64,000 nt of DNA, from NCBI GenBank assembly GCA_016795505.1, contig JAEUHH010000034.1, forward strand, positions 1 through 64,000. Direction: 5' to 3'. Position 1 is the first letter of the stretch; the number at the start of each line of letters is the position of its first letter. The notes beneath the pieces were generated by a model. The model was not told the DNA's origin. It was given only the letters and a program-made list of their open reading frames with translations, and ran no database searches. Below, one piece after another: positions 3,001 to 63,000 of this stretch. This stretch comes from Verrucomicrobiales bacterium. GTDB taxonomy: Bacteria; Verrucomicrobiota; Verrucomicrobiia; Verrucomicrobiales; DEV007. The translations under genes were made by a program, and so were the position numbers.

Positions 3001-4161
3001 AACGGCCAAAATGTCTCCGCCAGATGACAGGGCGACCGAAAGTCCTGCAAAATCTCCCGTTGCTTCCCCGTCAATGTCGGTTCCGCGCCGCACCCAATTC
3101 GTACCATTCCAGACGTAAACGCGGACATGCCCGGCGTTCGTCCCGTTCCCATCATTTTGAGGTGCCCCAATGGCAAGGATGGTTCCGTCCGACGAAAGAT
3201 CTAGAGAGCTAGCTGAAACATCGCTCAATGCTTCGCCATCGATGTCAGAGCCCCGCTGCACCCAGGTCGTTCCATTCCACTGGTAGACTCGCACGTGCCC
3301 TGCAGCAGACCCGTTCCCATTATTGAGCGGCGCACCAATAGCCACCGTATTTCCATCGGCAGACATTGCGATCGACACCCCCGACTGATCCCCCGCCGCC
3401 TCCCCATCGATATCCCCTCCCTTCTGGCTCCAATCCGGATCGAGATACGCATCCCCCATGATCGACCCCGGTGTTGCCCCGAGTGCTTGAAAGTCGCCGG
3501 GCAGCCGGCGGAGCCCGGTGGTCAGCGTCCCGCCCATCACATCGACGCGGGAACCGCTCAAGTCTCCCAAACCCAGCACATGCCCCTGCTCATGGAGCAA
3601 CGTCGACAACAGATCGTAGGCTCCCACCGCCCCACCACCCGCCAGCGCCATGCCTGAGGCGGCGAATTCCTCATCCACCAGCGGCGTCGCATCCACGAAC
3701 CACGCACCACTGCCCGCCGCGTCATCGTCGATGGTGATGGTGTAACCATTGGCCTTGCCCAAGTGATTCCCCCCCAGATCCGCGATCTCGTACCGCACCG
3801 CATCCAGCGCCGCCACCTGCTCCGCGCTCAGGCCCGACTCGATCCAGCGCTGCCTGGCCGCTGCGGCGATGGCTTCCAGCGTTGCCGCATTCAGCGAGCC
3901 CGAGGCCGCGCCCGTCTCGACCAGCGCCACTGGCGTCGTGCCCGAGACCGTCGGGGCGTCCTCCTGATCAGACCCGGTTGCCTCGCCGATCAGACCCGGT
4001 TGCTCCGGAGAGGTCGCCGTTTCCGCCGGGGGTTGGGGGGCTTCCGGCGCCTCGACTGGAGCCCCGGAGAACAGGATCCGGGGCTCCAGCGCCTCGATTT
4101 GGGTTTCTGAGAGAGAGCGCGGTGTCCGGGAGGCGGCGGATGGTCGGGTCTGGCGTTTCAT
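1..4161 (-). CDS. LEPR-XLL giant surface protein, N-terminal 1387 residues (partial)
   Basis: The frame is open from the ATG at 4161 to position 1, so only the N-terminal part is present. Residues 23-32 read ALEPRILFSG, the LEPR-XLL signature found near the N terminus of very large PVC surface proteins. A metzincin-like zinc motif, HEQGHVLGLGD, lies at residues 190-200 (H190, E191, H194, D200), after a matrixin-like segment containing DDDAAGSGAWFVD. Residues about 242-634 are seven FG-GAP-like repeats of exactly 56 residues (DIDGEA...DGN..A.GA...G.GHVRV..WNG). The rest is Gly/Ser/Thr-rich beta-repeat sequence (for example VTGTGG and VTVDLSGG) typical of adhesins and autotransporter-like proteins. 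It is probably exported and cell-surface bound. There is no obvious Shine-Dalgarno. An 81-bp gap separates it from the LuxR-type gene on the same strand. Protease activity is inferred from the motif only. Confidence 0.85.
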   Translation of the reverse strand, partial: MKRQTRPSAASRTPRSLSETQIEALEPRILFSGAPVEAPEAPQPPAETATSPEQPGLIGEATGSDQEDAPTVSGTTPVALVETGAASGSLNAATLEAIAAAARQRWIESGLSAEQVAALDAVRYEIADLGGNHLGKANGYTITIDDDAAGSGAWFVDATPLVDEEFAASGMALAGGGAVGAYDLLSTLLHEQGHVLGLGDLSGSRVDVMGGTLTTGLRRLPGDFQALGATPGSIMGDAYLDPDWSQKGGDIDGEAAGDQSGVSIAMSADGNTVAIGAPLNNGNGSAAGHVRVYQWNGTTWVQRGSDIDGEALSDVSASSLDLSSDGTILAIGAPQNDGNGTNAGHVRVYVWNGTNWVRRGTDIDGEATGDFAGLSVALSSGGDILAVGAYQNDGNGTDSGHVRVFVWNGTAWSQRGADINGEAGADQFGISVALSDDGNTLAVGASQNDGSGSNAGHVRVFHWNGSGWTQRGTDINGEAANDRSGIAVSLSSDGGILAVGASLNDGGGAESGHIRIFTWNGSAWAQRGSDIDGEASGDRFGISVALSSDGNTVIGGANFNSGGGMNSGHARVYRWNGSVWSQLGSDLNGEAANNLFGRSVAISQSGDAIAVGGNGNQGINGPTSGHVRIFQMGGTGNGPGGIGSTTSVALDPNGNLLITDTDGGDTDDTLTLVVNGASYRITDATNRLSAGAGAVQIDDHTVEVAIASVTGADGIVFDTLGGDDRVTVDLSGGAITHAIDYRAGAGSGDALAFAGTAGTAAFTFSDLQSGDVVINGGPQIAYSGLDQGIDAGLAVASLTLIYGNASETITIADDTAAGWMSVTSSEAQAIRFLNPTQSLQVRGGAGDDTVSAAGFDAAFAGDLLIDGESGEDLVNLDAGYSLATDRSLTVTSESILGSAGAVYVASGTGNIALEATVQIVLVESALTVQDGLLSLSTNQFDYAGPSSPPYVDAGVKLDLATLTVTGSGMADLYGSGVFDNAGVSILNGSQIVGTGDVGIYGESGADAGVYIDGSTIDTSTAGGGHVSIAGQWAGIAGIWVEDASLLAGGNLDLEGMDSSFGIWVGPSSGLDAWGTVTLQGTGYETGVYFSGHVGELGIGSAMNQGVVIEGGSNDTGSSPAWQETAGVTIEGSVSSSGSITVTGTGGKAGISSGYGGMMLDTNSGGFGGDITVTGSGTERGVDLGDDSRLWSGGKLTLEGVGGDVGVDLGMNGFLSATQGDLMITGTATDGVGISAGAGTDLGAMGSAVEIRGEVTATGTGVAFDRVSVNDAVGTSASVTIVGTGGNAAMNRGVEMLGGLIIGSNVWLSGSATGETGLFLEDVEIHSGHGGPADLTLEGEGGHEGVHLGESSYLVSGRDLTIIGTAANGVGVSAGMNTKIGAMGTLVE
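2260..3435 (-). repeat. Seven tandem 168-bp coding repeats (FG-GAP-like)
   Basis: The DI(D/N)GEA codons recur with anchors at plus-strand positions 3406, 3238, 3070, 2902, 2734, 2566 and 2398. Every step is exactly 168 bp (56 codons). Units have diverged at the nucleotide level but keep GHVRV and WNG. This is an in-gene tandem duplication giving beta-propeller-like blades. Confidence 0.9.
3966..4008 (+). repeat. 22-bp-period dispersed repeat, locus A (2 units)
   Basis: Two head-to-tail units, 3966-3987 and 3988-4008, both begin GATCAGACCCGGTTG. They lie in frame in the low-complexity N-terminal linker of the LEPR-XLL gene, where the minus strand encodes PGLIGEATGSDQ. They belong to the same family as loci B to H. 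Confidence 0.85.
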
Positions 4162-7016: not shown

Positions 7017-7916
7017 ATGAAACCGCTCCTCTGGGACGCCATCAATCCCTTCACCGGACTGCCCTTCACCTGGGACGATCCGAATCTCCGGTTCGTGGAT
7101 GGCATCGGCATGTATCTCGAGCCGGGCGACCCCGGCTTCGTTCCCTACGACACCCCGCCGCCGCCGCGGCGCAAGCCTTTCCGCCGCAAACGGAAACTCA
7201 AACCCAACCCAGAACCCAACCCAACGCAGACCATGAGCTCGTTCAAATACAACGTCGCCCCCAATCCCAACGGAGGCTTCACCACCCGGCCCGTCCTCGG
7301 GCCCGTCATCAGCAGCGAGGCCTTCCTCGCCAAAGTCGCCACCGACAGCGGACTCACCCCCGAGCAGGCCGCCGCCGCCTTCGATGCCATCGTCGGCGCC
7401 ATCACCGCCTGCGCCACCGGCTGCGACCACGCCACCGACATCCGCGGCCTGCTGCGCTTCCGCCCCACCAGCGGCGGCACCAGCCCCACGCCCGATGGAT
7501 TCCACAATCCCGACGACATCAATGCCGACATCGCCATCTCCCTCACCGCCGCCGCCCGCGATGCCTGGCGCGCCGGCCTGACCCTGGAGAGCCTCGGCGA
7601 GGTGGGCAAGGTCAGCCCCCTCATCGACTCCATCCTGAGCCAGGAGAATGGCGCCGAGAATCACTACGTGCCCGGCACCCTGATCGTGCTCAATGGCGAC
7701 CTGCTGCGCTTCCAGAAGACCGATCCCACCCAGGGCGTCTTCTTCCGCTCCGGGAACAATGCCGAAGTGCGCGCCACCATCTACGGCACCATCACCCCTA
7801 CCTCCCTTTCCGTGCTGGTCCCGGACACGCTGACCGGGCCGCTCAGCGTCCGGGTCGCCGCCTACATCAACGGTAGCGTGCGGAGCTTCACCTACATGAC
7901 CCCGATCACCAATTGA
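7017..7916 (+). CDS. HU/IHF-like DNA-binding protein with Ig-like (DUF4469-type) C terminus
   Basis: A 299-residue protein in three parts. Residues 1-72 are a Pro/Arg-rich extension (PFTGLPFTWDDPN, LEPGDPGFVPYD, RRKPFRRKRKLK). From M73 a domain resembles the HU-like family found with DUF4469: FLAKVATDSGLTPEQ and AFDAIVGAI, then SPLIDSIL. Residues about 220-299 resemble the DUF4469 Ig-like fold (LNGDLLRFQKTDP, SVLVPDTLTGPLSV). Such proteins are thought to bind DNA, but targets are unknown. A downstream ATG at 7233 gives a 227-residue version lacking the basic extension; neither start has a clear ribosome-binding site. A 12-unit 22-bp tandem array starts 25 bp after the stop codon and is a candidate target by position only. 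Confidence 0.75.
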   Translation: MKPLLWDAINPFTGLPFTWDDPNLRFVDGIGMYLEPGDPGFVPYDTPPPPRRKPFRRKRKLKPNPEPNPTQTMSSFKYNVAPNPNGGFTTRPVLGPVISSEAFLAKVATDSGLTPEQAAAAFDAIVGAITACATGCDHATDIRGLLRFRPTSGGTSPTPDGFHNPDDINADIAISLTAAARDAWRAGLTLESLGEVGKVSPLIDSILSQENGAENHYVPGTLIVLNGDLLRFQKTDPTQGVFFRSGNNAEVRATIYGTITPTSLSVLVPDTLTGPLSVRVAAYINGSVRSFTYMTPITN

Positions 7917-7940: not shown

Positions 7941-8204
7941 AAAGGGGGCACCCCAGCAAATAGTTGGGGTGCCTCCAGTGGACAGTGGGGGAGCCCCTAG
8001 TAAAAAGTGGGAGAGCCTCCGGTGAACGGTTGGGGTGCCCCCAGTAAGCCGTTGGGGTGCCCCCAGTGAACCGTTGGGGTGCCCCCAGTAAACGGATGGG
8101 GTGCCCCCGGTGAATGGTTGGGGTGCCCCCGGTGATCCGTTGGGGTGCCCCCAAGAACTTATGGGAGGCCCCCCTGGCATCCGTTAGGGAGCCTCCTAGA
8201 AAGA
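7941..8204. repeat. Tandem array of twelve 22-bp units
   Basis: Twelve uninterrupted units of exactly 22 bp start at 7941, 7963, 7985, 8007, 8029, 8051, 8073, 8095, 8117, 8139, 8161 and 8183. The six central units (8029-8160) share GTTGGGGTGCCCCC or one-base variants, followed by a variable tail such as AGTAAGCC or GGTGATCC. The outer units are more degenerate. Each core contains a GGGG/CCCC palindrome. It fills most of the 359-bp gap between the HU-like gene and the 8276 gene. The minus strand is open through it but gives only a repetitive GGTP/WGHPN-like peptide, so I treat it as non-coding. Confidence 0.92.
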
Positions 8205-8793: not shown

Positions 8794-8881
8794 GCAACAG
8801 GGTCTGATCAGAGAGGCAACAGGGTCTGATCGGAGAGGGAACAGGGTCTGATCGGAGAGGGAACAGGGTCCGATCGCAGGA
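8794..8881 (-). repeat. 22-bp-period dispersed repeat, locus B (4 units)
   Basis: Four tandem units at 8794, 8816, 8838 and 8860, each 22 bp. On plus they read (G/G)(C/G)AACAGGGT then CTGATCGGAGAG with single-base variants. This is the longest and most regular copy of the family. It is intergenic, starting 23 bp after the 8276-8770 stop. The rest of the gap to 9001 shows only a TTGACA at 8933. Confidence 0.95.
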
Positions 8882-62655: not shown

Positions 62656-63000
62656 GGTTTCAGGGTGGTTCTATTTTTGCTCCGAAGAACAACGCCACCA
62701 TATCCCTGCCGTTCACGGGACGCTACGCATCGGTTGGCATGGAACTTCCCGGATTTTGAGGAGGGGCGGGGTCGCCACCGCGGCCTCGCCGCCATGGCTG
62801 CCGGGCTGTTCAGTTCCTCCTGAAGGTTGATATCCCGGTTGGAGTGCCCACCACACCGCCATCTTCTATGGGACGACACTCTCGATCGCTCTCCGGGGGC
62901 GCCAGAGGCGGGAAAGATGCTTCGGAACTCCGAAATACCAATTGAACTTAAAATATTCCGGTGTTTTTTATAAAAATCTTTAATCCTCATCGTTTTTGTC
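62656..63000. other. 345-bp divergent intergenic region
   Basis: Contains the upstream regions of Hsp20 (minus) and the ankyrin gene (plus). It shows a GTTGGAGTGCCCACC stretch (62839-62853) resembling one unit of the 7941 array. An AT-rich promoter zone at 62941-62990 includes TTGAAC and TTTTTTATAAAAATC. No gene is supported here. Confidence 0.6.

Follow-up and report, generated by a model that had tools for sequence, protein, structure and literature searches.

Introduction

What holds the period of a tandem DNA array constant while the sequence of its units varies? This question is raised by an array at 7941-8204 of a 64,000-nucleotide stretch of DNA from a Verrucomicrobiales bacterium (contig C79 of our numbering), the whole of which is referred to here as the window. 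Tandem repeats whose size is constant (20-23 or 52 bp) but whose sequence varies, most of them non-coding, have already been described in bacteria (Subirana and Messeguer, PMC8161180), and in the accessible part of that article they are called enigmatic and of unknown function, a protein requiring the spacing or small RNAs being suggested as explanations. The window array falls within the size given there (20-23 bp, or 52 bp, in at least four regular units) and, as far as the accessible text describes these repeats, resembles them in its constant size, variable sequence and mostly non-coding nature. Unlike the repeats as presented in that text, however, the arrays analyzed here are tied to classes of genes, on which both their period (21, 22 or 42 bp) and the side of the gene that they occupy depend. 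The accessible part of PMC8161180 contains no such gene link, and neither do the titles and abstracts of other papers using the same terms, a literature sample in which subscription journals are sparsely covered. What is new is thus the pairing of gene and array with a period fixed by class, while the repeats as such belong to a kind already described.

The window array and its repeat family

The array keeps an exact 22-bp register over 264 bp, as the initial annotation had stated, with 12 units and 0% indels. Its identity at a lag of 22 is 0.69 over the 264 bp, compared with a maximum of 0.38 in 2,000 shuffles, and the runner-up among all lags and positions within the 64 kb belongs to the other 22-bp array, near 8800, and reaches 0.53. 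The description as an uninterrupted array of twelve units is correct in that twelve 22-bp units abut one another, but has to be amended to one inverted and eleven direct units, since the core of the first unit (7941..7962), GCTGGGGTGCCCCC, is read from the minus strand (7944-7957). The eleven direct units (7963..8204, plus strand; consensus GTTGGGGTGCCCCCAGTGAACC) have a homogeneous middle and are degenerate at both ends. A conserved core followed by a varying tail was likewise recovered, with a mean identity of 0.89 in core columns 1-14 and 0.64 in the tail columns, although the core does vary. The array, which starts 25 bp past the stop codon of the gene at 7017-7916, lies between genes, and since 22 bp is moreover no multiple of three, a coding repeat was rejected. 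The flanking genes encode a Ser/Thr kinase with an RCC1 repeat, the HU-like/DUF4469 protein discussed below, a 164-aa protein of unknown nature and a DUF5122/DUF7453 protein. In three genus mates neither a homologue of the 164-aa protein nor a full-length gene of the HU-like/DUF4469 class was found. In contrast to CRISPR arrays the units abut without spacers, and a defense system was rejected as an explanation after the neighboring proteins searched matched no defense family of PADLOC.

A search for the core elsewhere in the genome, as had been proposed, revealed one further array of this family, at 13320-13583 of contig C37, with the unit CTTGGGGTGCCCCCTGCCAACG. The consensus units of the two arrays agree at 13/14 core positions and at 4/8 tail positions, so that the core is the better-kept part between them; within the C37 array the tail is conserved nearly as well as the core (0.88 vs 0.94). 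Beyond these two arrays the matches to the unit in the genome showed no excess over a reversed-pattern control, and the relic suspected at 62839 is attributable to chance, with 37 window matches at three or fewer mismatches against 43 expected. No relatives of the array were found in 96 related genomes or in viral contigs, and an exact two-unit match was absent from 84,980 species genomes. The 20-kb stretch around the C37 array contains no homologue of the linked proteins described below. Contig C37 also carries AAGATCC about 36 times at one end (L052 1-254), as well as 135-bp repeats at 3761 and 11951.

The genome contains a further, dispersed 22-bp family with the GATC-containing unit AACAGGGTCTGATCGGAGAGGC, which has 63 genome matches at no more than one mismatch and occurs in the window at 8794-8876, 14747 and 3981. 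Its members range from a single unit to 8, and their ends are often inverted (TCCGATC...GATCGGA). That this family is distinct from the window array while sharing its period was borne out, and it was rejected as a relative of the array because both sequence and structure are separate, the period alone being common to them.

Taken by itself, the window array has features of a neutral minisatellite (VNTR) produced by intergenic slippage and unrelated to the neighboring gene: its unit is specific to the source genome, its degenerate ends around a homogeneous middle are slippage-like, and other repeats are abundant in this genome. The evidence that bears against such an origin comes from the comparison of loci across the phylum given below.

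The gene preceding the array

The gene at 7017..7916 (plus strand) encodes a protein of 299 aa with three parts. An N-terminal module (MKPLLWDAINPFTGLPFTWDDPNLRF..LEPGDPGFVP; 7017..7145) was delineated by protein alignment, in which LEPGDPG and P are invariant. It is followed by an HU-like domain (residues 74-195; 7236..7601), recognized by structure prediction and by Foldseek matches to 4fmr and to HU/IHF structures, and by an Ig-like DUF4469 domain (residues 203-281; 7623..7859) that matches Pfam PF14734 above the curated cut-off. In the predicted model the pLDDT is mostly 83-96 over residues 91-180, while the C-terminal half is of low confidence. The top fold match is 4fmr (Foldseek E 5.9e-10), followed by HU/IHF, and in a profile search of the PDB HU chains also ranked first, although these matches were weak. 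The window protein thus appears to have the HU-like plus Ig (DUF4469) fold of the 4fmr type, and its fold suggests that it may bind DNA. 4fmr is the structure of BVU_2165 of Bacteroides vulgatus, the prototype of these proteins, a DNA-binding protein with the same two-domain fold; compared with this type, the window protein has in addition the N-terminal module, and its gene is followed by the 22-bp array. The module measures about 43 aa (consensus MKxLxWDxIxPxTGxPYxWDxPNLRW..LEPGDPGYVP), precedes the HU domain, has no match in Pfam or NCBIfam, and is common to protein classes that are otherwise unrelated, among them classes without an HU domain. A paralogue of the window gene on contig C44 is also followed by a 22-bp array just past its stop codon, the unit of which is unrelated to that of the window.

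Array period and side by protein class

The protein sequence of the N-terminal module alone, which is blind to repeats, served as query against 84,980 species genomes and retrieved 55 loci, essentially all from Verrucomicrobiota (the records name groups of this phylum, one 'Lentisphaerae' MAG and a few 'uncultured bacterium' MAGs). Arrays were scored at these module-bearing loci. The proteins were sorted by their C-terminal parts into classes whose names are coined here, a scheme built from the surveyed loci themselves but from the proteins alone: class 1 (29 loci) has a helical bundle and an FN3 domain, class 2 (10 loci), to which the window protein belongs, the HU-like and DUF4469 domains, and class 3 (14 loci) another helical domain and FN3; of the remaining loci one represents another class and one was too short to be classed. 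The best repeat period between 12 and 60 bp was then determined within 450 bp before and after each gene, for loci with enough flank and by one simple measure applied to MAG contigs.

By this measure an array of 21 (or 42) bp lies upstream of the gene in 27/28 testable class-1 loci, one of 22 (or 44) bp downstream in 9/9 testable class-2 loci, and one of 42-43 bp upstream in 14/14 testable class-3 loci. The class of the neighboring protein therefore predicts the period and the position of the array at 50 of the 51 testable loci, among which paralogues are not fully independent although most units are. Only 0.8% of control windows from the same loci (n=526) reached the threshold for any of these periods, and on the opposite side of the gene none did (0/41 and 0/10, together 0/51). 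In 12 genomes that contain more than one class the period follows the class and not the genome. The genome of the window fits the same rule: the class-2 genes of the window and of contig C44 have 22-bp arrays, the class-1 genes on C48 and C51 have 21-bp arrays, and the class-3 gene on C54 has a 42-bp array.

About 1.3 Mb of this genome was sampled as stretches, in which more arrays of 21 or 41 bp were found (L096, L110, L138, L143 and L126), adjoining genes that have a looser version of the module or are homologous to class 1 or class 3. A few further arrays with a 21-bp period (L113, L115 and L148) adjoin ordinary, unrelated genes. Of these, L115 (9997-10337 of contig C28) consists of 16 units whose open frame continues into the class-V aminotransferase gene that follows, and is predicted to encode a MESRLIG repeat at the N-terminus of the aminotransferase.

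The dependence of period and side on the protein class at 50/51 loci, together with the lack of arrays in control windows of the same loci, argues strongly against slippage unrelated to the gene, and we regard a neutral minisatellite as very improbable. The proposals of the initial annotation that the period is constrained and that the array is no neutral minisatellite were thus upheld, since period and position follow the neighboring gene across the phylum.

Unit turnover and array relatives

While the period is bound to the protein class, the unit sequence is not. Only 1/351 pairs of class-1 units are identical at 16/21 positions or more. Closely related gene pairs keep their unit (22/22 for L173/L175 and 21/22 for L195/L198), whereas in the pairs L170/L193 and L192/L205, the genes of which are 85% and 80% identical in DNA, the units are no closer than shuffled ones and the 21-bp period is nevertheless kept. 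Because arrays beside homologous genes can have unrelated units, the GGGG/CCCC core that had been thought to be under selection is no general requirement. At equal divergence, indels amount to 2.2% in the linked arrays and to 4.5% in other tandem repeats; some indels are present in 17/45 linked arrays, and the notion of an absolute register was dropped for this reason.

In the orthologous arrays L166/L167 the units align one to one, none having been gained or lost. The paralogues L173/L175 carry gene and array within unrelated flanks. In both L173/L175 and L195/L198 the sequence is unrelated from 3 bp past the stop codon up to the array leader, and the post-stop segment of L175 and L198 looks as if it were an insertion site.

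Three of the five gene-linked arrays of the window genome (those on C79, C48 and C54) have relatives elsewhere that lack an intact gene. For the window array this is the C37 array described above. The relative of the C48 array lies at C2:20836-21050 (76%), with no linked homologue, and the C54 array has two relatives, one at C24:84872 (82%) with no gene and one at C77:44886 (L216; 97%) that adjoins a class-3 gene cut short some 12 codons into its reading frame. No copy of the C44 array or of the C51 array occurs elsewhere in the genome. The related 42-bp arrays at C24:84872 (L217) and on C54 (L215) each have inverted repeats about 22 bp long at their boundaries; these repeats are self-complementary within each array and completely different between the copies.

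These observations bear on the strongest rival to the explanation that we favor below, namely that the arrays owe their making or their movement to the linked protein or to a process associated with it. The protein or a partner would drive the birth and spread of arrays, the period would be a by-product, and an array would represent the trace of a semi-mobile element; for example, lengths of two helical turns might be held during replication slippage, or gene and array might be moved together in a manner resembling RAYT and REP elements. The wholesale replacement of units at unchanged period, the presence of gene plus array in unrelated flanks in L173/L175, and the array copies without an intact gene, among them the one beside the truncated gene on C77, are consistent with such a mechanism. 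Against it stand the absence of transposase, recombinase or nuclease domains in the classes examined, the stability of unit number in L166/L167, and a phage collection without homologues of classes 1 and 2 as well as a plasmid collection without homologues of class 2. For the latter reason an origin of the modules from phages or plasmids was also rejected; viral contigs yielded three weak matches to the N-terminal module. In REP-RAYT systems a gene is flanked by repeats, further copies of which occur in the genome without the gene. The arrays studied here similarly occur away from the gene, but the linked proteins searched contain no Y1 (TnpA_REP) transposase or other transposase domain, and long arrays of fixed period whose unit changes completely between loci take the place of single palindromes. 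Overall we consider it rather unlikely that array making or array movement accounts for the modules.

Folding and symmetry of the units

A different explanation would place the arrays at the RNA level: co-transcribed with the gene, as part of the 3' UTR in the window and of the 5' UTR in classes 1 and 3, they would form tandem hairpins that control or partner the protein. Some arrays of classes 1 and 3 end close to the start codon, down to 8 bp, and are therefore probably transcribed. The consensus units of these two classes also fold somewhat better than shuffled sequences (in class 1 the mean z is -0.8 for the sense and -1.2 for the antisense strand, in class 3 -1.2 for the sense strand), whereas class-2 units fold little better than shuffled ones (mean z -0.5). 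However, no covariation within units was found, double changes numbering 32 compared with 29.3 in shuffles, so that pairing within the units is not supported. Unlike in structured RNA, G-U pairs are no commoner than A-C (G-T 104, A-C 99), and no Rfam family was detected at the gathering score. Moreover, the 21/22/42-bp rule would suit phasing on the DNA helix rather than an RNA structure. Given that the slight fold excess in classes 1 and 3 is accompanied by neither covariation, G-U asymmetry nor an Rfam family, the hairpin array was rejected, and an RNA role of the arrays is judged improbable, less likely than a mechanism that makes or moves them. A dyad-symmetric operator was likewise dropped as a general rule after symmetry proved only mildly enriched (5.7 vs 5.1 in class 1, 5.3 vs 4.8 in class 2 and 6.5 vs 5.4 in class 3).

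A spacing-read platform as the proposed explanation

Four features point to a DNA platform that is read mainly by its spacing: a period of about two (or four) helical turns, the HU-like fold of class 2, a period that depends on the class of protein, and a unit sequence that is free to vary. We propose that the window array and the preceding gene form one module in which the array is the cis-linked platform of the linked protein, an explanation to which we give about an even chance of being right. The class-2 protein would sit on the array through its HU-like domain, and units spaced two helical turns apart would place its copies on one face of the helix in an ordered assembly that may bend or compact the DNA. 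If the geometry of this assembly sets the unit spacing, a distinct period (21, 22 or 42 bp) would be expected of each class, and the unit sequence could drift or be replaced wholesale provided that the period is kept. Relatives of a linked array found elsewhere in the genome, such as that on C37 in the case of the window array, might then serve as further sites of the linked protein in trans. Local structuring of the nucleoid, control of the linked and neighboring genes, or both would be likely roles.

HU proteins usually bind DNA with little sequence specificity, so that recognition of the array by an HU-like domain is not obvious. The helical bundle and FN3 domain of class 1 include no recognized DNA-binding fold, and the DNA-binding argument therefore extends to this class by analogy only. 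The C44 and C51 arrays, which lack copies in trans, the indels in 17/45 linked arrays and the few 21-bp arrays beside unrelated genes also weigh against the platform. In iteron/Rep systems and centromeres of the parS/ParB type, the gene for a DNA-binding protein lies beside a tandem array whose units are about two helical turns apart. A comparable arrangement is found here, a gene of putative DNA-binding type, as judged from the predicted fold, adjoining a tandem array of about two turns. The present modules differ from these systems in that the flanking genes searched include no homologue of Rep, ParA or ParB, in that the unit is not conserved between homologous proteins, and in that several modules occur per genome.

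For the phylum as a whole, it is conceivable, and we hold this somewhat more tentatively than the proposal for the window, that several otherwise unrelated proteins sharing one N-terminal module read DNA by spacing. The gene-array modules would then be ones in which the period (21, 22 or 42 bp) is set by the protein, which possibly also makes the array or keeps it renewed; period would be inherited, and sequence would be free. A described but unexplained kind of bacterial repeat is now tied to specific genes, and the question of what holds the period becomes directly testable through the linked protein. If modules of this kind exist throughout the phylum, they would account for at least some of the repeats whose size is constant and whose sequence varies. 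If the linked protein indeed recognizes the spacing, this would represent a recognition of DNA that depends more on phase than on sequence, and would provide a handle on chromosome organization in these bacteria.
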